A stretch of DNA of 64,000 bases, taken from assembly GCF_006152115.1 (NCBI RefSeq), contig NZ_VDFU01000010.1, positions 62,001 to 126,000 on the forward strand, given 5' to 3'. This stretch comes from Rubellimicrobium rubrum (GTDB taxonomy: Bacteria; Pseudomonadota; Alphaproteobacteria; Rhodobacterales; Rhodobacteraceae). A model generated the notes under the pieces. It did no database searches and had not been told where the DNA came from. It saw nothing but the letters and a program-made list of their open reading frames with translations. This document shows, piece after piece, positions 3,929 through 63,701 of this stretch (the first letter of the stretch is position 1; each line of letters begins with the position of its first letter). Position numbers and translations under genes: made by a program.

Positions 3929-3987
3929 CTGGCGCCTTATGAAACAGACGAGTCAGCTACCGACCCCATGAGTAGAGGAGCACTCGC

Positions 3988-4647
3988 ATGACGCGATCGA
4001 CTTCAAATCCTGCCAGCCGACTCATCACGCAAGGTGGCTACGAGGCCGACAGGGTCATGGCGCTGTCCGATGCTCTTTCGCGTCGGGCCGTGCTAGCCGC
4101 CCCCGCTGTGCTGGCGCTGACGGCGGGACCGGCAGCCCACGCGGAGACGGCCCACGCCTCGCTTGGCGGCTCGACGACGCTGGTCGCTTATTTCACCCGT
4201 TCTGGGAACACGCGCGTGATTGCGGGGACGATCCACCGTGCGCTCGGCACGGACCTGTTCGAGATCCGGCCGGCGCAGTCCTACCCGGAGGACTACGAGG
4301 CAACCGTCGAGCAGGCGCGAGGGGAACGCGACCGCGGCGACGAGCCGTCCTTGGCCGAGCGAGTCCCGAATGTGGGAAGCTACGAAACGGTGTTCCTCGG
4401 CTTCCCGATCTGGGGCGAGACCGCCCCGCCGGTGATCCGGTCGTTTCTAAGCGCCCACGACCTGCAAGGCACGACGCTGCGGCCCTTCATCACCCATGGC
4501 GGCTATGGCCTTGGCAACAGCCTGTCCGTTCTCGCAAGCCACGCGCCTGGCGCGCGCATCGAGCCGCCGTTCGTGATGGAAGCCGACCAGGAGCGCAGGA
4601 CGCTCAACCAGGTTCGAGGTTGGCTTGGCGAGATTGAGCGCCCATGA
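3988..4647 (+). CDS. Flavodoxin-like protein with Tat signal
   Basis: This is a 219-residue flavodoxin-fold protein. After an N-terminal extension comes a twin-arginine signal (SRRAVLAAP, hydrophobic core, cleavage near PAAHA). The mature part has the FMN phosphate loop YFTRSGNTR and the later GFPIWGETAPP and THGGYGLG segments typical of the flavodoxin_4 group. It probably binds FMN and transfers electrons or reduces quinones in the periplasm. ATG 3988 is preceded by a strong AGAGGAG site; ATG 4057 would give a shorter leader but lacks such a site. Like the reductase upstream it is Tat-exported, which suggests a shared periplasmic redox role. Confidence 0.85.
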   Translation: MTRSTSNPASRLITQGGYEADRVMALSDALSRRAVLAAPAVLALTAGPAAHAETAHASLGGSTTLVAYFTRSGNTRVIAGTIHRALGTDLFEIRPAQSYPEDYEATVEQARGERDRGDEPSLAERVPNVGSYETVFLGFPIWGETAPPVIRSFLSAHDLQGTTLRPFITHGGYGLGNSLSVLASHAPGARIEPPFVMEADQERRTLNQVRGWLGEIERP

Positions 4648-9732: not shown

Positions 9733-10386
9733 TCACTCCTCCAGCCTGTCGGACGTGATGGCGTACTCCCGCACCACGAAGCCCAGGGGGTTGCCCCACA
9801 CCTCGTCGATGCTGCGGCGTTCCTCGGGCGCGAAGCCGAACAGGAGCGTAGCGGTGAAGTTGCCTGTGGTGATGCCGTCGCGGTTGGTCAGGCGCTTCCT
9901 GAGCCGCACCTGGGCGCGGTCGTTGGTGATGAGCGCGATGCTCAGCACCTCCACGTCGATGCGGGCGTTCTCGCCGTAGGCCTCCGGCGGGTAGGCATCG
10001 TGGCCGGAGGTCCAGAGCGCGCGCAGGGTGTCGGCCGCGCCGCCCTCGCTCATGGCCAGGGTCCGGCGCACGCGGAGGTCGTTGTCGAGCTGGTTGTAGG
10101 TCTCGCGGTCGGTCACGTAGCGGAACACCTGGGCCTGGATCACCGCCGGGCGCTCGGCGAGCGAGACGGCCCGCACGGTGGCCTCCGGCAGCGCCAGGCC
10201 GGTCTCGGGGTCGTAGGCGACGAGAGCCGGGGGCGGGTCCTCGTCAAAGACCGCCACGGCGGCCGCTGCGAGGCAGCCCGTGACGCCAAAGAGCGCGCTC
10301 GCGCCGGCGATGGCCTTCCAGACCCGCTCGCGCCGGCGCGCCCCGTAGATCAGCTCTTCCTCAAGGATCTCGCTCATACGGTTCAT
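9733..10386 (-). CDS. virB8: VirB8 T4SS inner-membrane assembly protein
   Basis: The 217-residue protein has a short cytoplasmic N-terminus, one membrane helix at about residues 28-48, and a periplasmic NTF2-like VirB8 domain including ETYNQLDNDLRVRRTL and the C-terminal NPLGFVV motif. VirB8 nucleates assembly of the channel and contacts VirB5, VirB9 and VirB10. An internal ATG three codons downstream is an alternative start. It begins 10 bases after virB5. Confidence 0.93.
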   Translation of the reverse strand: MNRMSEILEEELIYGARRRERVWKAIAGASALFGVTGCLAAAAVAVFDEDPPPALVAYDPETGLALPEATVRAVSLAERPAVIQAQVFRYVTDRETYNQLDNDLRVRRTLAMSEGGAADTLRALWTSGHDAYPPEAYGENARIDVEVLSIALITNDRAQVRLRKRLTNRDGITTGNFTATLLFGFAPEERRSIDEVWGNPLGFVVREYAITSDRLEE

Positions 10387-17114: not shown

Positions 17115-17255
17115 AAGAGCCGCTCGCCGCTGGGCAGTCCCCTGCGATGCTGGGCATCACAGGGGACAGGAGCGACGGTTGGGCGCTTCGGCCCCGTCAA
17201 GGCTTGTCCTCTGCGCGCCACACCGCGCCTGCGGGAAGCCTGGACCGGGCCTTCA
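17115..17255 (-). repeat. Structured dispersed repeat, copy A
   Basis: Read on the minus strand, this matches copies at 36585-36722 and 40455-40586. Arms 17236-17251 and 17190-17205 pair over 14 of 16 positions. A second stem, 17137-17150 with 17154-17167, pairs over 14 positions, one of them a U-G wobble in this sense. The conserved ends are GGCCCGGTCCAGG and GGACTGCCCAGCGGCGAGC. The 16983-17304 gap holds nothing else I can name. Confidence 0.75.
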
Positions 17256-17304
17256 CGGCCATACAGCTCTTTGCTTTCAAACGGATGTGACTCAGAGTCT
17301 CCCC

Positions 17305-17910: not shown

Positions 17911-19031
17911 GGGTGAGCGCTACCCTGAAGCGCGACTTTCGAGTCTTCTCAATCTGTTGAGCCTCGAAAGGACACCCGATGAAGCGCACCTACTCCCAAC
18001 TGAATGACGAGGAACGCCGGAAGCTGGAGCTGTGGCGGCAGGCCAAGATCAGCCCGGACGTCATGGCCGAGAGGCTCGGGCGGCATCGATCCACCATCTT
18101 TAGGGAACTCAAGCGCAACCACTTTCGCGATGAGGCCATGCCGAAAGTTGCGGGTTACTACTGGATGGTGGCCAAGATGAAGGCGGCGATCCGGCGCGCC
18201 AAGGAGCGCAAGCTGATCCGCCACGCCGACCTTCAGGGCCAGGTCATCGACCGGATCAAGGCTGGCTGGACGCCCGAACAGATCGCCGGGCGCATGCGCT
18301 TCGAAGGTGCAAAGCCGCGTGTATGCCAAGAGACGATCTGTCGCTTCGTTTATTCCAAGGAAGGCATGCAGCACGATCTGTGGTGGTATCTGCCCGAGCA
18401 TCGCCGCAAGCGCCGCCCGCGTCGCGCCCGCAAGCGCCAAGCCCCAAATTTCCGTCCCGAAAACAGCATCCTGTTCCGTCCGGACGACGTCGCGCATCGG
18501 CGTCAGTTCGGTCATTGGGAGGCGGATCTGGTCTTGTTTCGGCAGAAGTTCGGCCCAAACAACTTGACCTCGCTGGTCGAGCGCGTCAGTCGGTTCACGG
18601 TCCTGCTGCCCAATGCCGACCGCCGCACCAGGCCGATCATGGCCAAGCTGGTGGCGGTGCTGGGCTCCCTGCCCTTCAAGGCTCGTCGCTCGATCACCTT
18701 CGACCGGGGCTCGGAGTTCATCGATTGGCCGCATCTTCAGGCGGGTGCCGGGGTTCAGACCTGATCTCGCGACCCGCGCTCGCCATGGCAAAAGGGCACG
18801 GTCGAGAACACCAACCGCCGCATGCGGCGCTGGCTGCCCCGCGACATCGACCCGACATCGATCTCCGGCCCCCATCTGAAGGCGATCTGCGATCGTCTGA
18901 ACGCCACGCCGCGCAAGTGCCTGGGCTGGAAAACACCGTCCGAGGTGTTCCGCGAAAAGGTCTTGGACCGGCGCGCCTGACCCACAATGATGACCTCAGC
19001 TCGAAAGTCGCACCTCACGTGGCGCTCACCC
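17911..19031 (+). mobile_element. IS30-family insertion sequence
   Basis: The terminal inverted repeats, 17911-17943 and 19000-19031, share GGGTGAGCGC at the outer end and GCGACTTTCGAG at the inner end. The trinucleotide gcc is found on both sides (17908-17910 and 19032-19034), a fitting target duplication for IS30. One transposase gene fills the inside, but it contains a stop codon. Confidence 0.85.
17979..18980 (+). pseudogene. IS30 transposase with in-frame stop
   Basis: The coding frame runs for 333 codons, the normal IS30 length, but codon 262 is TGA (18762-18764). The first part has the N-terminal HTH (RLGRHRSTIFREL) and the DDE core Asp residues in HWEADL and FDRGSEF. After the stop the same frame continues with SPWQKGTVENTNRR, which holds the catalytic Glu, and ends in VFREKVLDRRA. 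IS30 proteins usually have a Trp codon here (TWFCDPRSPWQ), so a single change of TGG to TGA plus nearby drift is likely. Without readthrough the enzyme lacks its catalytic Glu. Confidence 0.88.
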
Positions 19032-33501: not shown

Positions 33502-34668
33502 ATGCTAAGACTTGTTCTCCTGACCTCCGCTCTGGCCCTGACAACCGGTATGGTGCTGGCGCAGCAGGATGGCACGCCGGAGCAGCAACCGGCGCAGGAA
33601 GAAGCGCCAGATCAGGCAGAGGTCACGCCGGCCGAGGTCACGCCGGCCGAGATCGCGCCAGGGTACGCCACGGACGAGGATCTCCGCCAGGCTGCACAGG
33701 ACCTTTTCGATGTCATCCTGCCCGCGGCTCCTCCCACCGATGAGGTCCATGCGGCGCAGCGTGACCTCGGCGCCATGCTGTTCTTCGACCCGCGCATGTC
33801 CTCCTCGGGGCTGTTCTCCTGCCAAAGCTGCCACAACGTAGGCATGGGTGGTGTGGACGCGCTCCCGACCTCTGTGGGCCATGGCTGGCAAAAGGGTCCG
33901 CGCAACGCGCCCACCGTCTACAACGCCTTGTTCAATGGCGCCCAGTTCTGGGACGGTCGTGCCGCCGACTTGGCCGAGCAGGCCATGGGGCCGGTCCAAG
34001 CCGCGGTTGAGATGAACAACACCCCCGACCAGGTCGTGACCACCCTTGAGTCCATGAAGGAGTATCTCGACGCCTTCGGCGAGGCTTTCCCCGACGAGGC
34101 CGAGCCGGTGAGCTTTGCCAACTTCGCCACCGCCATTGCCGAGTTCGAGGAAACGCTGGTCACCCCCGGTGCAGGCTTCGACCGGTGGTTGACAGGCGAT
34201 GACGCGGCCATGTCGGACGAGCAGAAACGCGGCCTTGCCCTGTTCATGGACTCGGGTTGCGCCGGCTGCCACAATGGGGTGAACTTCGGCGGGCACGACT
34301 ACTATCCCTTCGGCGTCGTCGAGCGGCCCGGGGCCGAGGTGCTGCCCGAAGGCGACCGCGGCCGCTTTGCGGTGACCGAGACCGCCTCGGACGACTACGT
34401 GTTCCGCGCGGCACCCTTGCGCAACGTGGCGATCACGGCGCCGTACTTCCATTCGGGCGCGGTCTGGTCACTCCCCGAGGCCGTCGACATCATGGCCAAT
34501 GCACAACTCGGCACCGAACTGGCCGAGGCAGACATCGGCGCCATTGTCGCCTTCCTCCATAGCCTCACTGGCGAGCAGCCGCGGGTCGAGCACCCGGTCC
34601 TGCCGGCCCGGACCGAAGCCACGCCGCTGCCCAACCCCTTTGACGATATCATGGAGCAAAGCCGGTAG
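33502..34668 (+). CDS. Di-haem cytochrome c peroxidase
   Basis: ATG 33502 gives a 388-residue precursor with a signal peptide (MLRLVLLTSALALTTGMVLAQ). Two CxxCH haem sites, CQSCH near residue 108 and CAGCH near 254, with intervening MauG/CcpA motifs (KGPRNAPTVYNALFN, DGRAADLAEQA, APLRNVAITAPYFHSGAV), identify a bacterial di-haem peroxidase that reduces H2O2 in the periplasm. Between signal and domain there is a Pro/Glu-rich linker with an EVTPAEVTPAE repeat. An FNR box precedes it. Confidence 0.93.
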   Translation: MLRLVLLTSALALTTGMVLAQQDGTPEQQPAQEEAPDQAEVTPAEVTPAEIAPGYATDEDLRQAAQDLFDVILPAAPPTDEVHAAQRDLGAMLFFDPRMSSSGLFSCQSCHNVGMGGVDALPTSVGHGWQKGPRNAPTVYNALFNGAQFWDGRAADLAEQAMGPVQAAVEMNNTPDQVVTTLESMKEYLDAFGEAFPDEAEPVSFANFATAIAEFEETLVTPGAGFDRWLTGDDAAMSDEQKRGLALFMDSGCAGCHNGVNFGGHDYYPFGVVERPGAEVLPEGDRGRFAVTETASDDYVFRAAPLRNVAITAPYFHSGAVWSLPEAVDIMANAQLGTELAEADIGAIVAFLHSLTGEQPRVEHPVLPARTEATPLPNPFDDIMEQSR

Positions 34669-34870
34669 CGCGCTCGGGCCTGTTACCACGATCGACACGA
34701 TCGGTTCCTGCGCCTCGCAGGGACCGACATCGGCATATTTCAAGGATCAACCTGCGCCCGCCACTCAGGGTCGTGGGCCTTCCAAGCGCCCAAGCATCGC
34801 CGACCTTCTGGGGACGTCGCTAGGCGGGTCACAGACGCAGGCCGAACAAAGATCACAAGGAAGACCGTTC

Positions 34871-36454
34871 ATGAGAACCGGCCAAGCGACTGACCAGCTG
34901 ACCTCAGGAGCCTTGAGGCCATCTGCAAAGCTCCTGCCTTGTGCCCCGCAGACTTCATTTGTGGCTGTTTCGGCAGCTATTGCTAGCCTCACCTGGACCA
35001 CCCCTGCGCAAGCCCATGTGAAGTGGTTTGCGCCCTACATCGTCGGGGCTCCCCCGCAGCCCCTTGGCGCCACCCTGACCAACGTCTGGTTCTGGACAGC
35101 CATCGTGCTCGTGCTGGTGTTCTTCCTGGCCACCCTGGCTTTCGAGCGCTTGCCCGCTGGCCAGGGCGTGCTCGACCGCATGGACCGCCTCACCAATCCG
35201 TTTTGGGGCCGGGCGGACGATTTCATGCGCGTGGCGATCGGCACCTTCTTTGTGGCCATCTATGCCGTGGGCGGGGTCTATCTCACGCCGGATCTGGCCA
35301 CCCCCAACGAGTGGGTCTCCTGGTTCCAGCTCCTGATCGCTGGGGGCCTCTTCTGGCGCAAGACCATGCCGCTCTCAGCCCTGGGCATCATCCTGCTCTG
35401 GGCTTTGGCTCTGACCGACTACGATCTGTTCCACCTCCTCGACTATTTGGCCTTAGGCATCGGCGTTGCAGGCTACCTGGTGCTTGCCGCCTCCGACCGA
35501 CCCGGCTGGTTCCGGCACCGCTTCGAGGTGCTGCGCTGGGGCATTGCCATTGCGCTGATGTGGTCAAGCCTCGAGAAGTTCGCCTACCCCGAGTGGTTCA
35601 GCCCCCTCGTGAAGGAAAAGCCGTTTCTCACCTTCGGGATGCCCGAGCACGTGTTCGTGCCCATGGCGGGGGTGGCCGAGTTCACCATGGGCTTCGGGCT
35701 TCTCTGGACGCCCCTGGTCCGGCGGCTCTCCGCCGTGGCGCTCATCGTCATATTCTTGTCAGCGGTCTGGCCCTTCGGGCGCATCGACATGGTGGGGCAC
35801 GCGCTCATCATGAGCACCATCTTTCTCGTGGCGCTCGACCCCGAGCGCGAGGTCCACTTCGTGCCCCGCGTGAAGCAGGCCCTCGCGGGCGTGCCGCTGG
35901 GGCTGGCCACCGCCATGGTCGTGCTCATCGCCGGCTATTGGGGCACGCACCGGACCATCTACGGACCCGAAGGAGACCCCGAAGCGGTTGCCGCCGCAGC
36001 CGCGATGGCGGCCGAAGGCATGGCCACCCACTCCCACAACCCGGAGCAGCCGCATGGGCCCATGGCCGCGGGCGGAATCGGGGCGCCGCCGGACAGGGGT
36101 GAGGAGATACAGATCACGGGCCCTGCTGTGGATGCGCCTGCGGATCATGCTGTGGTAGCACAGGAAGCTGCAACGCCCGACGCCGCGTTCGACGCCATGA
36201 TGGCAACCATGCATGACATGCCGGACATACCGGCGGCGTCGACGGGCGCGGTGAATGCCGACTTCCTGCGGCTGATGATCCCGCACCACCAAGGTGCTGT
36301 GGACATGGCCGCCATTGTGCTGGAGCAGACCGACGACCCAGAGGTCCGCGCCTTGGCCGAGCACATCATCGCGGAGCAGGAGGCAGAGATCGCCGAGATG
36401 GAGACCATGCTCCAAGAACTGGGCGCTGAGCCGCCGGTGCCACCGGCGGAATAA
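34871..36454 (+). CDS. Membrane protein fused to DUF305 domain
   Basis: ATG 34871 follows AAGGAAG and gives 527 residues. The N-terminal 380 residues hold about nine membrane helices, with segments such as WFWTAIVLVLVFF and ALMWSSLEKFAYP; the layout resembles DoxX-like proteins, though this is not certain. A His-rich linker (THSHNPEQPHGP) leads to a C-terminal DUF305 domain (FLRLMIPHHQGAVDMA, AEHIIAEQEAEIAEME), a ferritin-like periplasmic fold often linked to copper. The fusion suggests metal or redox handling at the membrane. It lies 203 bases after the peroxidase, probably in the same FnrL-controlled unit. Confidence 0.85.
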   Translation: MRTGQATDQLTSGALRPSAKLLPCAPQTSFVAVSAAIASLTWTTPAQAHVKWFAPYIVGAPPQPLGATLTNVWFWTAIVLVLVFFLATLAFERLPAGQGVLDRMDRLTNPFWGRADDFMRVAIGTFFVAIYAVGGVYLTPDLATPNEWVSWFQLLIAGGLFWRKTMPLSALGIILLWALALTDYDLFHLLDYLALGIGVAGYLVLAASDRPGWFRHRFEVLRWGIAIALMWSSLEKFAYPEWFSPLVKEKPFLTFGMPEHVFVPMAGVAEFTMGFGLLWTPLVRRLSAVALIVIFLSAVWPFGRIDMVGHALIMSTIFLVALDPEREVHFVPRVKQALAGVPLGLATAMVVLIAGYWGTHRTIYGPEGDPEAVAAAAAMAAEGMATHSHNPEQPHGPMAAGGIGAPPDRGEEIQITGPAVDAPADHAVVAQEAATPDAAFDAMMATMHDMPDIPAASTGAVNADFLRLMIPHHQGAVDMAAIVLEQTDDPEVRALAEHIIAEQEAEIAEMETMLQELGAEPPVPPAE

Positions 36455-37001
36455 GTCCTGAGAGATCGCCTGCGGACATGTCATTCTGCTCAGGGTGATG
36501 CCCTTGGCGCCACCCTGCCGTTTGAGGGCCCTAAACCGCCCTTCTGTCCGCGCAACCTGTTGGTCTCTGCAGATTGTCTGGCGTGGAGACCCGGTCAGGG
36601 CTTCCCGCAGGCGCGCTTGGCGGGCCGCAGACAAGCTTTAACTGGGTCGGAGTGCCCTACCCTTGCCCCAGTTCCCTGCGAGACTTGGCATCGCAGGGAA
36701 CTGCCCAGCGGCGAGCGGTTCCTGCCCCCGGCTTTACCATCAGCCGTGCGGGTTATTGATTGCTCGCCATGAGAGCGGCTCCTCCCTCGAAGCTCGAAAA
36801 CGACAGGTGTTATTCTCAACGACATATTTTTCGGTCATGCGACTTCCGGGTGTAGCTGGCCCCTGCCCCGCCCTTCTCGGTGCATATTGGTCAAGACGAG
36901 ACCCGGAGCTGAGCAGACGTGCTCTGATCAGTGCACCTGACTTGCACGCAGCCCAAACCTCTGAAGCGCTGCGTCGGGCGGGCGGATCGAAACTCACGAT
37001 T
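36455..37001. other. Intergenic region with repeat copy B
   Basis: About 550 bases between the DUF305 fusion gene and the OLD nuclease gene (opposite strand, tail to tail). The main content is structured repeat copy B. The part from 36740 is AT-richer than its surroundings (around ttattctcaacgacatattttt) and shows no gene. Confidence 0.6.
36585..36722 (+). repeat. Structured dispersed repeat, copy B
   Basis: Outer stem 36588-36603 with 36633-36648 pairs at 15 of 16 positions counting G-U. The second stem, 36670-36681 with 36691-36702, is a perfect 12-bp hairpin (AGTTCCCTGCGA). It ends in the conserved GGAACTGCCCAGCGGCGAGC. It lies 131 bases after the DUF305 fusion gene. Same orientation as copy C. 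Confidence 0.78.
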
Positions 37002-38897
37002 TTAACAGAACCTCGACAGAAGGGTCGTCCAGCAATCCAAGACCGCGTCGTCGGCGTAGCGGCCGAGGCGCGTCCGCAGGCGCTCCTTGACGCCTAGCGA
37101 GAGGCGGACCTTCCAGTCCTGGGCGAGGTCGAAGCCCTCCGCCTGGGCCCAGGCCCTGATCTGCGGCACGATGGGCTGAGCCGGGTCGTGCGCGTCCTCG
37201 AAGGGACGTCCGGCTCGGCGCTCCATCCGGTCGAGCACCTCGACGATCAGCTCGGGCGGCATGAGGTCCTCGACCTCGGTCCCCATCTTGCCTGCGAGAA
37301 CCTCGTCGGTGGTGATGACGCGGTCCGTGAACCCCGCGTAGAGGTCCTCGCGCAGGGCCCTCGCGGCCTGCTGGCCTGCCTGGTCGCCGTCGAGAAGCAC
37401 GAAGGGCAGGACGTCGTCGCGGCCCATGAGGATCGCTGCGATGAGCTTCGCGGTTCGGGCTCCGCCGGATGGCGGGAACACCAACTCAGCCTTGGGCGCG
37501 ATCCTACCCTGCCCGATCAGGGCGTTCTTGATCCCCGACAGGTAGTGCTGGTCCGAAGGCCCCTCGACGATCACAGGCGTGCAACCAAGCAGGAGGCTCT
37601 CGGCGACAGTCAGGTTGAGGGCCGAGTGGACCGCATAGGTCGCGCCGGCATCCCGCTCCCCCCCTTGGCGGCGTGCCTGCCCCAAGTCGCTAGAAGCGGC
37701 CGTGCCGCCGTCGGCCGCTACGAAGACCTTGCGGACACGGTCGAGACGGTCGCCGTCGATCAGGAAGGGCGAGTGGGTGGTGAAGAGGAGCTGGTTGGTT
37801 GATGCGAGGCCGTCGAAGAAAGCCGACAGGTCGCGCTGGGCGAGGGGATGTAGAGAGTGGCCAGGCTCATCGAGGAGCACGACGGCGTTCTCATGGCTGG
37901 CCTCGCTCTCGTAGGTGAAGACCAAGAAAAAGCTGAGGAACCACTGCAGGCCCGCGCTGCGGTTCTCCAGCTCAATCTCCTCGGGACGGCGCGCGTCGGA
38001 CACGAAGATGCGGAAGTAGTTGCCATCCGCAACCAAGCGGAAACGGTAGTCGCCCTGCTTCCACCACTCCTTGAAGCTCCGGGTCAGCTTGGCGGAGGCC
38101 GACTGGAGGAGGGCCTGGCGCTCGCGGAGCTGCTCATCGTCTCGCACGATCTCCGCTTCGGTCTTCGCGTCCGAGGTCGTGACGTTGCCGTAGTAGTCCC
38201 TCGTTTGCGTGACGCCGGTGGCGCGCCCTAGCTCCAGCACCTCCTCGGGGCTGAGGCCCACGAGCTTAAAAAGCACCTTGAGCGTACGCGCCTTGGCCGC
38301 CTCCTTCTGGCCGAGGTCCGTGCGCTTCAGGTTCTCAACGACCTGCGGCAGGTATATCTGCGCATCGAGGTTGCCGTAGTTGGAGTAGTAGACGAAGGCG
38401 GGAAGCCGCCTTTGTAGCTCATCGAAGAGATCTGGTCCCTTGGTTGTCGCCGCGACGGCGTCAGCTTCACCCTCCTCGTTGGCAGTCACTACGCCGGGCC
38501 TAGCGAGAGCACCTAGGAGATTGAACCCAGGGGCATCGGGAAACCTGAAGAGGTAGCGCCCGTCAAAGTCCCTTATCACCTCCAGGGTCGCGGTCGTGTT
38601 GGGGTCGGCCCCGTGCCGCTCGGCGAGGGCGCGCTCGTCAGGATCCAGCTCGAAGACGCAGACGATGAAGTCGTGCTCGCCGGGACTCGCGCGCATCTCG
38701 GCGAAGTGCGCGCGCGGCATGTCGTCGAGGATGCTGATCGCCCCGTCGCCCGACGGGTTGAGCTTCCACAAGGGTAGCAACAGGTTGGTCTTGCCAGCCT
38801 CGTTCTCGCCGATCAGAGCGGTAACGTCGGAGACGTCGATCCAACCGCTATCGACCACGGAGCGGAACTGGGTGACGCGAAACTTCCTGAGCTGCAT
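37002..38897 (-). CDS. OLD-family ATPase-TOPRIM nuclease
   Basis: ATG at the complement of 38895-38897 gives 631 residues. The N-terminal ABC-type ATPase has Walker A GENEAGKTN near residue 30, a signature helix (NRSAGLQWF) and Walker B VVLLDEPGHSLHPLA. The C-terminal TOPRIM has the Glu of VIVEGPSDQHYL and the Asp pair of LLDGDQAG. This is a stand-alone OLD (overcoming lysogenization defect) type nuclease, known to act in phage exclusion or DNA repair. There is no UvrD-like helicase next to it, so Gabija is not supported. HigA lies 105 bases upstream on the same strand. Confidence 0.88.
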   Translation of the reverse strand: MQLRKFRVTQFRSVVDSGWIDVSDVTALIGENEAGKTNLLLPLWKLNPSGDGAISILDDMPRAHFAEMRASPGEHDFIVCVFELDPDERALAERHGADPNTTATLEVIRDFDGRYLFRFPDAPGFNLLGALARPGVVTANEEGEADAVAATTKGPDLFDELQRRLPAFVYYSNYGNLDAQIYLPQVVENLKRTDLGQKEAAKARTLKVLFKLVGLSPEEVLELGRATGVTQTRDYYGNVTTSDAKTEAEIVRDDEQLRERQALLQSASAKLTRSFKEWWKQGDYRFRLVADGNYFRIFVSDARRPEEIELENRSAGLQWFLSFFLVFTYESEASHENAVVLLDEPGHSLHPLAQRDLSAFFDGLASTNQLLFTTHSPFLIDGDRLDRVRKVFVAADGGTAASSDLGQARRQGGERDAGATYAVHSALNLTVAESLLLGCTPVIVEGPSDQHYLSGIKNALIGQGRIAPKAELVFPPSGGARTAKLIAAILMGRDDVLPFVLLDGDQAGQQAARALREDLYAGFTDRVITTDEVLAGKMGTEVEDLMPPELIVEVLDRMERRAGRPFEDAHDPAQPIVPQIRAWAQAEGFDLAQDWKVRLSLGVKERLRTRLGRYADDAVLDCWTTLLSRFC

Positions 38898-39002
38898 TCG
38901 TGATCCACATGTTCGGCGACCTGGCACTTAGCCTAGTGCAGTTCAGGCTGAGGGAGGTCGTTGAGCTGGTAGCCAGACAACCGTGTCGCTTCTGGCCCTT
39001 CT

Positions 39003-39901: not shown

Positions 39902-40372
39902 ATGCCACCTGTTACCATCCGCCCGCTGCGCCCTGACGATGGACCGCACGCAGCGCGGGTCTTCTTCGACGCCGTGCGCGAGGGCACCCGGGCGCACTAC
40001 ACCGAGGCGCAGCGGCGGGCCTGGGCGGGCGAGCCTCCCGGCCCGGACAGCTGGCGCGACCGGCTCTGGGGCGTGGAGGGCTTCGCGGCCGAGGAGGAGG
40101 GCCGGCTCGTGGGCTTCATGACGATCGCCGGGACGGGGTACATCGACATGGCCTTCGTGGCGCCCGCGGCCTTGGGCCGGGGCGTGGGCTGGCGGCTCTA
40201 CCGCGCCGTGGAGGGAAGGGCGCGGGAGCTTGGCGCCTCGGTGCTCACGACGGAGGCGAGCCGGATGGCCCGGCCGTTCTTCGAGCGGCAGGGTTTGTCG
40301 GTGATCGCGGAGCAGGTCGTGGTCATCCGCGGCGTGGTGCTGACCAACTACTGGATGCGGAAGGTGCTGTGA
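39902..40372 (+). CDS. GNAT acetyltransferase
   Basis: The 156-residue single-domain GNAT protein has the acetyl-CoA loop VAPAALGRGVGWRLYR, an early TIRPLRPDDGPH and a late RPFFERQGLSVIAEQ typical of the C-terminal motif B. The substrate cannot be told. It starts 313 bases from higB in the opposite direction and is followed by structured repeat copy C. Confidence 0.88.
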   Translation: MPPVTIRPLRPDDGPHAARVFFDAVREGTRAHYTEAQRRAWAGEPPGPDSWRDRLWGVEGFAAEEEGRLVGFMTIAGTGYIDMAFVAPAALGRGVGWRLYRAVEGRARELGASVLTTEASRMARPFFERQGLSVIAEQVVVIRGVVLTNYWMRKVL

Positions 40373-40454
40373 GCCGCGGCGTGCAGGTCGGCAAGGGCGC
40401 AAACGAGTGGCTCCACTTCAGCAGAATTCTTGAATTGTTGGCTGGTGACGGCGC

Positions 40455-40586
40455 GGGAGGCCCGGTCCAGGGGTCCCGCAGGCCCGCCCGGGGCCGAGGA
40501 CAATCCTGGACGGGGCCGGAGCGTCCCATGCTTTCCTATGTTCCTTCGGTGGCCTGCCATCCGAAGGGACTGCCCCGCGGCGAGCA
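40455..40586 (+). repeat. Structured dispersed repeat, copy C
   Basis: Outer stem 40459-40471 with 40505-40517 pairs at 12 of 13. The second stem, 40540-40549 with 40561-40570, has 10 pairs, one G-U. It shares the GGCCCGGTCCAGG start, TCCCGCAGGC and the GGGACTGCCCCGCGGCGAGC end with copies A and B. It lies 83 bases after the GNAT gene. Confidence 0.78.
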
Positions 40587-40622
40587 ATCTTTCTTGACGG
40601 CGCGGCTCCAGCGGCAAGCCCC

Positions 40623-40908: not shown

Positions 40909-42615
40909 CTAGTGCTGGGTGGGCCGTTGTTGTTCGTTCTGGGCCTCTGCCATGGCTACACTCAATGCAGCCGCAAGTTCATCCAGACGATACGGCTTGG
41001 ACAGGATGCGAACCCGTTCCGCTTCGGCCTGCCGTTTGGCTGCTTCGGCGTAACCGCTGGTCAGGAGCACGGGCAACCCGCGACGGCGCGATCGGATCTC
41101 ACGGGCGAGGTCCACACCATTCATCCCGCCCGGCATCATGATGTCCGAGAACACCACATCCACTCGGCGCCCGTTGGCCAAGGCCCCGAGCGCGGCTGCG
41201 GCACTCGCAGCCCGGGTCACCTCATAGCCGAGCTGCTGAAGCATCTGGCCCACCAGCTCGGCGACCTCATCGTCGTCCTCGACGAGGAGCACGCAGCCAG
41301 TTCCCCCGGGATGCTGTCGCTCGACGTGGAGGTCGACCAGATGATGCTGATCGGCTGCGGGCTGCTCCTCGGTCCGGGGCAGATACAGGCTGATGGTGGT
41401 GCCGCGGCTTACCTCGCTGTCGATCTGAACACGTCCCCCGGACTGGGTGGCGAAGCCATGGACCTGCGCAAGTCCAAGGCCGGATCCCTTGCCGATGTCC
41501 TTGGTCGTGAAGAACGGCTCGAAGACCCGGGCGCGCACCTCGGGCGTCATCCCTGTGCCGGTGTCGGTAATCGAAAGGCAGACATAGTCGCCGGCTTGGC
41601 TGTCGACCCGGCACCCAGGGCAGTTCTCGGCTCTCACGACGATGGTCCCGCCGTTCGGCATCGCGTCCCGTGCGTTCACGGCGAGGTTCAGCACCACGAG
41701 CTCCAACTCGCCGGGGTCTACCTCAACGGGCCAGAGATCGTCCGCGAAGGCGAACTCCACATGCACATCGCCCCTGAGACTGCGGTCGAGCAGCTCGCGC
41801 ATGCCGCCGATCTGGCGCACAACGTCCACAGGCTCGGGCTTGAGCTCTTGCCGCCGCGAGAAGGCCAGAAGCTGACGGGTCAGCCCGGCACCGCGTTGCG
41901 CCGCCTGCTGCATACCTTCGATCAGCCGCTCCTGGCGGTCCGGGTGGGCACCCTTTTTGAGCATCTCCAAGCCCCCCGAGACCACCATCAGGAGGTTGTT
42001 GAAGTCGTGCGCGACGCCGCCCGTGAGCTGGCCGATGGCCTCGATCTTCTGCGCTTGGCGAAGGACCTCCTCCACGCGGGCGCGTTCCTCCATCTGGGTG
42101 CGCAACTCGGCGTTCGCTTTCTCCAGCTCGCGCGTACGCTCCGCGACGAGATCTTCCAACTCCTGAGCGGCTCGCTCACGGGCCGCCAGCAACGCGCGCA
42201 CCTCGTACTGACGTTCGCGCGCCCGCACGGCCGTCTGGATCGTGCTCGTGAGCGTGATCGGCTGGATGGGCCGCTCGAGAAGCGACACGTTGCGCAGCGC
42301 CCCGACCAGCCTCTGGCGCCAAGCCATCACGGCGGGCTGCTCCTGATGGCTGGTCAGCACGACGAACGGCAGGTCCGACCAGGCGGGCTGACCCTCGACC
42401 CATTCGGTCAACGGCCCGGTCTCCTGTCCGAAAAGGCCCTCCTCGGCGATGAACACGGCCGCGGCGCCCGTCCCGATTGCATCCAGCAAGCTCGCAAGAC
42501 TGGCGCAGACCTCCACGTCCAGGCCAGCGCGGCGCAGCAGATGCGCCGATGCGGCTCCGTCCCGACCAATGGGCGCGAAGATCAGAACGCGGGTGTCGGG
42601 ATCAGCGGGCCCCAT
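40909..42615 (-). CDS. Hybrid histidine kinase with pseudo-receiver
   Basis: The 568-residue protein begins with a receiver-like domain (about 8-125) in which the usual phospho-Asp position reads VFIAEEG, so it cannot be phosphorylated normally. A coiled coil (about 130-190), a HisKA/HATPase with phospho-His in [11 protein letters not shown] and [19 protein letters not shown], and a C-terminal receiver with Asp in [10 protein letters not shown] follow. It is soluble. It overlaps by 14 bases the KaiC-like gene upstream, so both act together. The pseudo-receiver plus kinase recalls the CikA architecture of clock input, but this is only a resemblance. Confidence 0.9.
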
Positions 42616-53016: not shown

Positions 53017-53504
53017 CGTGCCAGTCCTCGCCTTCACGATTGCAGAGCGACAATGCGCAAAAGGCGCCGTTGGCTCCATTAGGGCAGCCGATCGGGCCAT
53101 GAAGGCGAGCCCTGCCTGCCTGTTCTCCTTGGCTGCCTCGCGACATCGACCCGACATCGATCTCCGGCCCCCATCTGAAGGCGATCTGCGATCGTCTGAA
53201 CGACACACCTCGCAAGGGCCTGGGCTGGCGAACGCCGGCCGAGGTGTTCCGCGAAAAGGTCTTGGACCGGCGCGCCTGACCCCCGATGATAGCACCAGTT
53301 CGAACGTCGCACGTCACGTGGCGCTCACCCACGCCTGCCTGCGAGCACAGCCTGTCACACAGGATGAGCAGTCCTGTACGGCCTTGGATAAACTCGTCAG
53401 CAGATTGCTGGGGCGGACGCTGCGTTTGTCACGTTTCCCTGACTGCGTTGCGCCTGCCCTAGTGCTACATGGTAGTGTGGCCCGGAGCTGCGCACCCTGA
53501 CCCC
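53017..53504. other. Intergenic region with IS30 remnant
   Basis: About 490 bases between the broken sensor and a Crp/Fnr gene. The middle is the 3' end of an IS30 element. The rest (from 53331) shows no gene or clear promoter. Confidence 0.6.
53129..53330 (+). mobile_element. IS30 3'-end remnant
   Basis: About 200 bases closely match the right end of the IS30 element at 18.8-19.03 kb, including the final transposase codons (VFREKVLDRRA, stop at 53280) and the right inverted repeat ending GGCGCTCACCC at 53330. The 5' nine tenths of the element is gone. Differences from the other copy are scattered, so this is an older, independent insertion or deletion scar. Confidence 0.85.
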
Positions 53505-62026: not shown

Positions 62027-62670
62027 TGGAGGCCGTAGAGGAGGATCCAATCCCCCTCTCGGCACTCCAGCATGCTGTCTACTGCCTACGCCAGGCTGCG
62101 CTTATCCACCTCGAGCGGGCCTGGGCTGAGAACCGTTTTACCGCTGAGGGGGCGGTGCTGCACGAAGTTTCGGACAAGGGTGGCGCGCGTCGTGCTCGCG
62201 GCGTCCGGCGGGTCCACGCGCTGCCCTTGGCCTGTAAACGGCTCAACCTCGCGGGCAAGGCCGACCTTGTCGAGTTCCACCCGGGCTCGGATGGCGAGAT
62301 CCCTTATCCCGTCGAATACAAACGTGGCCGACCCAAGCTCCATCGCGCCGACGAGGTGCAACTCTGTGCTCAAGGCCTATGCCTTGAGGAGATGACCGGG
62401 CGCCCGGTCCCCGAGGGTGCCATCTTTTATGCCGAAACCAAGCGGCGAACGGTCGTGCCCTTCGACGCTTCCCTTAGGGCCGAAACTGAGGACGCAGCTC
62501 GCGCAATGACCGAGGTGTTGGCATCGGGCATTACGCCCCCGCCCACCCCGCACCGAAGCCGTTGCCGCGCCTGCTCGCTCCTTGACCTTTGCCGCCCAGA
62601 TGCTGTGGCACGACCGGTCCGAGCCTGGCGCGAGCGCATGATCGGGCGGGCGCTCGCGGAGAGGCCGTGA
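62026..62670 (+). CDS. cas4: Cas4 adaptation nuclease
   Basis: The start overlaps the cas7 stop (TGATG). The 214-residue RecB-like protein has a cysteine in QHAVYCLRQ, GKADLVEFH and PVEYKRGRPK as active-site parts, and three cysteines near the end (CRACSLLDLC) for a 4Fe-4S cluster. It selects PAM-proximal prespacers for Cas1-Cas2. Confidence 0.95.
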   Translation: MEAVEEDPIPLSALQHAVYCLRQAALIHLERAWAENRFTAEGAVLHEVSDKGGARRARGVRRVHALPLACKRLNLAGKADLVEFHPGSDGEIPYPVEYKRGRPKLHRADEVQLCAQGLCLEEMTGRPVPEGAIFYAETKRRTVVPFDASLRAETEDAARAMTEVLASGITPPPTPHRSRCRACSLLDLCRPDAVARPVRAWRERMIGRALAERP

Positions 62671-63701
62671 AGCGCCTCCTCAACACCCTTTACGTCACCA
62701 CCGAAGGGGCCGCGCTCCGCAAAGACGGCGAGAACCTTGTGGCCGAAGTCGAGGGCGACGAACGCGCACGCGTGCCTCTCCACATGCTGGCCTCGGTCGT
62801 GCTTTATGGCCCCATCCTCGTCTCCCCTGCTCTAATGGGAGCTTGCGCCGGCGCAGGGATCACGATGGTCCTCCTTGACCGCGCGGGCCGGTTCCAAGCC
62901 CGCGTCGAGGGACCGGTCACCGGCAACGTGCTCCTGCGCCGCGCCCAGTACCGAGCGTCTGATGCCGCCGAGGACATCGTGCGCTCGATTGTGCTGGGCA
63001 AGATTGCCAACCAGCGCGCTGTCCTGATGCGCAGCTTGCGCGACCACGGCGAAAGCCAAGATCGCGCTGCCCGTGAGGCCGTCGAAGCCGCAGCCGAGCG
63101 CATGGCGCACGTTCTCCGCCGGGTTGAGCGTGCCGACGAGACGGTGGACGCGCTGCGCGGCTCCGAAGGGGAGGCTGCCAACCTTTACTTCGCCGTCTTC
63201 GGCCATCTAATCCGGTCGCCCGATCCGGGGCTTGCGTTCCGCGGTCGCTCGCGCCGCCCGCCGCTCGATCCAGTCAATGCGGTGCTGTCCTTCCTCTACA
63301 CGCTCCTTGCCCATGACTGTCGCTCGGCCTGCGAGGGGGTCGGGCTCGACCCTGCCGTAGGCTTTCTGCACCGCGACCGCCCCGGCCGGCCAAGCCTTGC
63401 GCTCGATCTCATGGAAGAGCTGCGCGCGCCATTTGCTGACCGGCTTGCCCTTTCGCTCATCAATCGTCGGCAAATCAGAGAGCGGGATTTTCGGTTGCTC
63501 GACGGTGGAGCCGTGGTGCTTTCGGACGACGCGCGCAAGCTGGTGCTCACGGCTTGGCAGGAGCGCAAGCGCGAGGAACGCACCCACCCTTTCTTGGGAG
63601 AGAAGGCCCCCTTCGGCCTTGTGCCCTGGCTCCAAGCCCAGCTCTTGGCGCGCCATCTACGCAGCGACCTCGACGCCTACCCACCCTGGTTTTGGAGTTG
63701 A
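62667..63701 (+). CDS. cas1: Cas1 integrase
   Basis: GTG 62667 overlaps the cas4 stop (GTGA) and starts at the homology boundary (KRLLNTLYVTTEGA). The 344-residue protein has the metal-binding Glu in GSEGEAANLYF, the His in FLHRDRPGRPSLALDLMEEL and the following acidic residue. It integrates spacers with Cas2. Earlier in-frame ATG 62589 would overlap cas4 heavily. Confidence 0.95.
   Translation: MKRLLNTLYVTTEGAALRKDGENLVAEVEGDERARVPLHMLASVVLYGPILVSPALMGACAGAGITMVLLDRAGRFQARVEGPVTGNVLLRRAQYRASDAAEDIVRSIVLGKIANQRAVLMRSLRDHGESQDRAAREAVEAAAERMAHVLRRVERADETVDALRGSEGEAANLYFAVFGHLIRSPDPGLAFRGRSRRPPLDPVNAVLSFLYTLLAHDCRSACEGVGLDPAVGFLHRDRPGRPSLALDLMEELRAPFADRLALSLINRRQIRERDFRLLDGGAVVLSDDARKLVLTAWQERKREERTHPFLGEKAPFGLVPWLQAQLLARHLRSDLDAYPPWFWS

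Follow-up and report, generated by a model that had tools for sequence, protein, structure and literature searches.

A folded element of plasmids and single-stranded DNA phages, present in three copies in Rubellimicrobium rubrum, is a probable single-strand initiation signal

Conversion of single-stranded plasmid or phage DNA into duplex is known from a few models, namely G4, phiX174, M13, F, and RSF1010. In the G4 record (NC_001420), the primer occupies positions 3970-3997 and the origin lies at 3998, and the CTG at which the primer starts follows a hairpin at a distance of 3 nt. The plasmid literature describes Frpo and single-strand initiation (ssi) elements as plasmid-borne folded single-stranded DNA (ssDNA) near leading-region genes (PMC11541004, PMC7690428, PMC10104558), and two initiation signals, ssiA and ssiB, in the oriV (vegetative origin) region of RSF1010 (IncQ) (PMC7690428). 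It also reports that RSF1010/R1162 uses its own MobA-linked primase, and that the single-strand origin (sso) of pT181 and the ssi of phiX174 turn ssDNA circles into duplex via host enzymes, RNA polymerase in the former case and a primase complex in the latter (PMC5714925). Here we describe an element of ~140 nt that occurs in three copies, A, B, and C, in a stretch of 64,000 nucleotides of R. rubrum (hereafter, the window), corresponding to positions 62001-126000 of contig C2 (NZ_VDFU01000010.1) of a draft assembly of 104 contigs. The element is probably a single-strand initiation signal, that is, a complementary-strand origin of mobile DNA, acting as folded ssDNA. No description of it was found in the literature searched, a coverage largely outside which the subscription journals fall; the available parts of PMC11541004, PMC5714925, PMC10104558, and PMC7690428 discuss Frpo/ssi and sso elements and do not describe it. 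One member of the family may have been described earlier, in the 1991 set of ssi signals or in older subscription literature.

The three copies were noticed in a sequence-only reading of the window, and all were recovered, A on the minus strand and B and C on the plus strand. On the element strand, read 5' to 3', each consists of a closing stem, a module denoted Y, a linker, a second hairpin (hairpin 2), and a foot, CTGCC...CGGCGAG. Module Y is a long stem; its internal loop, TCCCGCAG ... GAGGACA, hardly varies and encloses a small variable hairpin; some copies carry a longer form of the module, GGTGGTGCGGCCCGCAG ... CGAGGACCCGG. Of the ends said to be shared, the 3' one, CTGCCC(A/C)GCGGCGAGC, is indeed exact in all three copies, whereas the start GGCCCGGTCCAGG fits A and C exactly but not copy B, which reads GACCCGGTCAGGG. 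Mechanically called open reading frames (ORFs) overlap all three copies, but none of the seven ORFs tried at or beside them has a Pfam match above the curated cut-off, and a coding-sequence reading was rejected. Comparison with Rfam, which had been proposed together with the original observation, matched no family: Rfam 15 yielded no match at the gathering threshold in the window or in 13 further loci, and copy A had no match near the gathering score of the matched family, so that membership in an Rfam family was likewise rejected.

Of the compensatory changes reported between the copies, the following are borne out by the alignment and the pair table: in stem 2, pair 3 is C-G in A but T-A in B, pair 6 is C-G in B but T-A in C, and pair 8 is G-C in B but C-G in C; in the outer stem, A and C have G-C where B has A-T. 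Covariation persists in a larger MAFFT alignment of 22 copies (13 from R. rubrum, eight from its genus relatives G248 and G251, and one from G072), from which six of 28 matches were excluded as short, weak, or near-duplicate (L017 7600, L018 222, L019 3869, L172, L173, and L174 3866). In this alignment, 23 of 35 pairs changed on both sides and 94.2% of cells are paired (78.8% of those in the closing stem) compared to 75.9% in shuffles, and the covariation score of 0.459, compared to 0.160 in shuffled alignments, was reached by none of 500 shuffles, a control inflated by the relatedness of the copies. When partners were slid by one to three columns, the score did not exceed 0.168 (0.116 or 0.168 for a one-column slide), a control that leans toward structure because RNAalifold derived the structure from the same alignment. 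The element strand of the window copies folds better than dinucleotide shuffles (z of -4.8, -3.5, and -2.7 for A, B, and C, with 0, 0, and 4 of 200 shuffles folding as well), compared to z of -2.7, -2.9, and -2.5 for the opposite strand; the fold thus clearly favors the element strand in A, favors it slightly in B, and shows no preference in C. Selection on the folded strand, the first part of what the sequence-only reading had suggested, is well supported by covariation. Its second part, that the selected molecule is an RNA, gives way to folded ssDNA, which we favor because plasmids carry homologues of the element close to rep, mob, or ardC genes, frequently in inverted pairs, and ssDNA phages carry them on the main coding strand.

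At the level of sequence comparison, the family, its fold, its distribution over plasmids and ssDNA phages, its coding-strand polarity on the phages, and its inverted pairs are established. Homologues were sought with two cmsearch models: R1, built from 12 R. rubrum copies, and R2, built from ten copies of which none comes from R. rubrum or its relatives (seven contigs from a viral collection, host unknown, three of them inoviruses; two Pseudomonas plasmids; and one Ochrobactrum plasmid). R2 retrieves A, B, and C from the window and nothing further to E 1. R1 produced 21 matches to E 0.1 in the R. rubrum genome, 14 of them below 1e-7 (including the 12 training copies), and, of 33 loci from phages and plasmids, matched 28 at the same threshold, with 31 matches in all (best E 2.7e-12); on the plasmids of P. 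putida and P. fragi it also detected a second copy in inverted orientation. As controls we used 80 listed stretches (596 kb) of the 114 returned by a pattern scan of genome contigs, which were taken as chance because R2 finds nothing at E 0.1 among them (best E 0.32, 13.8 bits); for R1 the controls comprise 47 of the 80 and nine more of them (best E 0.27 in the nine). The search of related genomes with Infernal, suggested along with the original observation, recovered the element with R1 in 3 of 8 genus genomes and, as a lower bound, in 2 of 248 family genomes, whereas R2 found it in 3 of 299 genomes of the phylum, again a lower bound; R. rubrum itself is included in all three counts, and the family and phylum searches applied strict filters with 10 or 12 candidates scored per genome. 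A permuted form, type II, in which the foot hairpin comes first and is followed by module Y and a third hairpin (four copies folded), accounts for seven long matches in 3 of 8 genus genomes, and shorter Y matches also occur there, several on the same contigs.

The window DNA itself is probably plasmid DNA, because C2 encodes, beyond the window, ArdC, VirC1, a Rep3 initiator, and a type IV secretion system coupling protein. Eight of the 14 strong R. rubrum copies lie on four relaxase-bearing contigs (C43, C50, C53, and C56). MobA_MobL relaxases are encoded on C43 and C50; C56 encodes a NikA/MobC-like protein, a MobA/VirD2-type relaxase, and a Rep similar to replication protein A of rhizobial plasmids, and C53 has an ORF very similar to one of C56. 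In BLASTN searches, a type II copy matched 305 plasmid records to E 1 (best 9e-36; 14 with at least 80% cover), with highly similar ones on Roseobacter-group plasmids, and the C50 copy matched 123 plasmid records to E 1. The copy from a 2,292 bp RepL/MobV plasmid of P. putida matched 248 plasmid records to E 0.01, classified by PLSDB as conjugative (104), mobilizable (57), or non-mobilizable (87). Among 5,426 E. coli genomes, this same copy was found in 48 places in 44 genomes, all 48 on plasmids and none chromosomal; in the 3,333 bp plasmid inspected from one strain series (Esc1-31), which we take to be the pBBR1 replicon, the element lies upstream of a Rep of 220 residues, with marginal model scores (R2 E 0.0015, R1 E 0.00026). 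Of eight plasmid sequences compared, five keep the foot GGC(G/A)A, the Roseovarius one in permuted order, and the feet of the X. citri, X. euvesicatoria, and K. pneumoniae copies have diverged. The C56 copy gave no or minor BLAST matches against plasmids, and neither R1 (at 1e-4) nor R2 (at 0.01) matched the small Paracoccus plasmids with related relaxases (L182-L185) or L025 and L186-L188. With homologues on phages and plasmids, a small RNA specific to the R. rubrum genome was rejected, and the alternative suggestion of a structured mobile repeat holds in so far as the element is carried on mobile DNA.

The P. putida plasmid copy also matched 33 records of a phage collection to E 1; the five for which taxonomy was checked are two Rhizobium microviruses, a chicken microvirus, Pf1, and a Pf-like phage. 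The C50 copy had no phage match by BLAST at E 1. Scans of viral contigs with a module-Y pattern returned 32 + 3 stretches, ten of which were classed as ssDNA phages by gene content or similarity (Table 1). All ten carry the element on their main coding strand, which in these phage families is the packaged strand. The inovirus copies, for example that of L242, have the full architecture of the window copies, down to ACTGCC...CGGCGAG. Two viral matches to a foot pattern were taken as chance, the ORFs of their contigs resembling phage tail genes. Separately, L245, a viral contig of 11 kb, carries copies at 4406-4546 and 9899-10057 (+) within repeated microvirus-like flanks and probably joins two microvirus genomes, as a dimer or a chimaera.

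On plasmids, a recurrent arrangement is the inverted pair. Among the inspected plasmid and genome contigs, every one with exactly two detected copies of any form, 13 of 13, carries them in opposite orientation, several of these plasmids being related. They comprise C30, C34, C50, C53, C56, and C77 of R. rubrum; C81 and C125 of G251; C13 of G248; C24 of G072 (L181), where the second copy is a weak R2 match; and L222, L223, and L272, in the last of which the second copy was seen by BLAST and motif only. Additionally, C43 has a convergent pair and a weak third copy.

Collectively, replicons that seem alike only in having an ssDNA stage carry one fold, on the coding strand where this can be read, as expected of a complementary-strand origin. 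We infer that the element acts as ssDNA and in priming, with use of a primase and a start at the CTG. When the replicon becomes single-stranded, as a conjugative T-strand, a displaced circle, or an infecting phage genome, the element-bearing strand would fold, 5' to 3', into the module Y stem, the second hairpin, and the foot. A host priming enzyme, most likely a DnaG-type primase, might then recognize the folded strand and begin the primer at the CTG at the foot of hairpin 2, copying into the hairpin, after which the replicative polymerase would extend it; the two opposite copies on many plasmids would provide one signal per strand. Counted by eye, the CTG at this position is present in 28 of 31 copies, namely in all 21 from R. 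rubrum and its relatives and in seven of ten from elsewhere, the latter having been chosen for a recognizable foot. E. coli DnaG starts at CTG. Given this preference, and given that the G4 primer starts at a CTG three bases past a hairpin, the priming enzyme is probably of the primase type.

Several observations weigh against this interpretation. The window copies are tied to plasmid homologues via stepping stones and profiles, at the level of sequence: a direct BLAST search of plasmids with copy A yields nothing at E 1e-3, and one with copy C yields, at E 1, nothing beyond chance-like matches. Taken by itself, copy B falls short of significance with R2, because its 13.5 bits lie below the best control. 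R1 matches near 30 bits are marginal and no proof, because R1 control matches reach E 0.0024 and 0.034, in loci selected for the common foot; moreover, the R1 matches in viral contigs are partly built in, the contigs having been found by the module-Y pattern. R1 finds no match to E 0.1 in the chicken microvirus (L232), Pf1 (L233), L234, the G4 stretch (L235), or L270, and R2 none to E 0.01 in the first four. The ten phage contigs represent about five independent cases, because L242/L257, L243/L244, and L245/L250/L255/L267 look related, and in some of the 25 unclassed stretches (L240, L254, and L268) the element opposes the main coding strand. The listed microvirus copies have module Y without the GGC(G/A)A foot, the probable dimer L245 has its two copies in the same orientation, and the three copies devoid of CTG (L222, L227, and L252) are all among the ten from elsewhere. 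Finally, 31 of the 44 E. coli records belong to the single Esc1-31 series, with vector-like plasmids.

The best-surviving alternative, which we nevertheless consider unlikely, is a single-stranded promoter of the Frpo type, at which RNA polymerase would start on the folded strand to transcribe early genes and/or make a primer. Genes of the kind typical of leading regions, namely ardC, parB-like, and virC1 genes, are found close to type II and Y-only copies, and by manual count 18 of the 22 aligned copies have TTGA in their outer stem; in some copies, however, the TTGA stem pairs change with compensation. In a search of 31 copies with 60 nt flanks for -35/-10 boxes at 16-18 nt spacing, the element-strand scores sum to 218, compared to 215.7 (standard deviation [sd] 3.9) in 20 shuffles, and those of the complement to 219, at the top of the shuffle range (mean 214.1, sd 2.6, largest shuffle 219). 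No copy scores as high as 10 of 12. We disfavor initiation by RNA polymerase since the element-strand scores are shuffle-like and no copy reaches that level; the consensus used is that of sigma70, and alphaproteobacterial -10 variants may differ from it.

The undescribed small RNA proposed in the sequence-only reading would now have to be a non-coding RNA family that plasmids and phages carry and that is transcribed from their duplex form. It is not the explanation we prefer, and we hold it to be improbable. The strong covariation, the better folding of the element strand in copy A, and the position of B and C between convergent genes would all suit such an RNA. Yet Rfam provides no match, no sigma70-like site above shuffles (sigma70 consensus only) occurs within 60 nt of the 31 copies, and the inverted pairs, the coding-strand polarity on ssDNA phages, and the restriction to plasmids in E. 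coli are not expected of a small RNA as such. That the element is an origin of transfer (a nic site with an inverted repeat) or another relaxase-binding site is very improbable: copies on C43, C50, C53, and C56 flank relaxase genes and ACTG/CCC loosely resembles MOBP nic sites, but the element stands beside relaxases of differing types (PF03432, MobA_MobL, and, in L222 and L272, MobV), comes in inverted pairs, and is found on ssDNA phages, which are not known to have relaxase-driven transfer. A miniature transposable element or transposon-end debris, to which the dispersed copies in one genome might point, is hardly credible: the stems show compensatory changes, the sequences flanking A, B, and C align poorly with one another, and copies are found both on phages and, beside rep or mob genes, on plasmids that are unrelated.

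Returning to the initiation signal, we lean, with less assurance than for the function itself, toward a broader proposal: that one family of folded ssDNA signals, read by a conserved host priming enzyme, is a common second-strand origin of inoviruses, microviruses, small mobilizable plasmids (the pBBR1 vector origin possibly among them), and large conjugative plasmids from Alpha- and Gammaproteobacteria. Its modules would be permutable, and Y could stand alone, as if they were interchangeable parts. If so, sequence alone would mark possible second-strand starts on hundreds of records, including resistance plasmids, and the family would help to explain how broad-host-range plasmids function in many hosts.

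The features are listed in Table 1. Contig C2 carries A (-), B (+), C (+), one type II copy, and one Y copy. Copy B is flanked by convergent ORFs at 34499-36454 (+) and 37002-38927 (-) and copy C by convergent ORFs at 39902-40372 (+) and 40909-42615 (-), each with a Pfam domain. The second ORF beside copy B encodes an AAA_15/AAA_21 ATPase, AAA_21 being described as a putative AbiEii toxin, and is a possible defence gene. Elsewhere in the window, a cas1 gene (PF01867, E 1.2e-101) occupies 62589-63701 (+) on this plasmid-looking contig, and a direct repeat of 201 nt with 91% identity is found at 18831-19031 and 53130-53330, with 34 kb between its units.

Table 1 Copies of the element and their parts (window coordinates unless a contig or locus is named), and viral contigs classed as ssDNA phages
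Feature	Coordinates	Strand	Evidence or remarks
Copy A, whole element	17119..17259	-	R1 117.5 bits (A in R1 training set); R2 18.5 bits, E 0.0022 (A not in R2)
Copy A, module Y stem (long; internal loop TCCCGCAG ... GAGGACA conserved)	17190..17251	-	Folding, alignment
Copy A, hairpin 2	17137..17167	-	Folding; helix 5 of alignment, 99.0% of cells paired
Copy A, foot CTGCCCAGCGGCGAGCG, CTG at base of hairpin 2	17121..17137	-	Sequence motif
Copy B, whole element	36580..36719	+	R1 114.9 bits; R2 13.5 bits, E 0.041, weak alone
Copy B, module Y stem	36588..36648	+	Folding
Copy B, hairpin 2	36671..36701	+	Folding
Copy B, foot	36701..36717	+	Sequence motif
Copy C, whole element	40451..40588	+	R1 115.6 bits; R2 36.8 bits, E 4.7e-8
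Copy C, module Y stem	40459..40517	+	Folding
Copy C, hairpin 2	40540..40570	+	Folding
Copy C, foot CTGCCCCGCGGCGAGC	40570..40585	+	Sequence motif
Type II copy	C2:48400-48562 (L179 8400-8562)		Further type II copies in L175, L191, L197
Copy on vector-like plasmid, upstream of Rep	L271 1723-1862		R2 E 0.0015, R1 E 0.00026 (marginal)
ssDNA phage	L270		Phage_F capsid, Rep
ssDNA phage	L250, L267		Rep
ssDNA phage	L243, L244		Zot-family assembly protein, Phage_CRI
ssDNA phage	L242, L257, L266		G2P-type Rep (L266 below cut-off); secretin in L242, L266
ssDNA phage	L255		Protein resemblance to L250
ssDNA phage	L245		Flanks common to L255

Among the described systems, the complementary-strand origin (ori_c) of G4 resembles the element in being intergenic, on the coding strand, and composed of several hairpins, and its primer-start CTG just 3' of a hairpin has the same geometry as the CTG, a putative start, at the foot of the element. 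However, neither R1 (E 0.1) nor R2 (E 0.01) matches the G4 stretch, so that no homology to it was found; no stem like module Y was seen in G4, the foot sequence is unlike that of the element, and for the latter the use of a primase is putative. The remaining systems were compared by description. With the Frpo/ssi elements of F and other enterobacterial plasmids the element shares plasmid carriage, folding as ssDNA, and proximity to leading-region genes, but Frpo offers -35/-10 boxes to RNA polymerase, whereas none were seen in the element with the sigma70 consensus. The ssiA and ssiB signals of RSF1010 are in inverted arrangement, and the two initiation signals per plasmid recall the inverted pairs described here; RSF1010 relies on its own MobA-linked primase, whereas the backbones that carry the element encode Rep and Mob proteins of several kinds. 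Finally, the sso of pT181 and the ssi of phiX174 have the same role as that proposed for the element, namely conversion of ssDNA to duplex by host enzymes.
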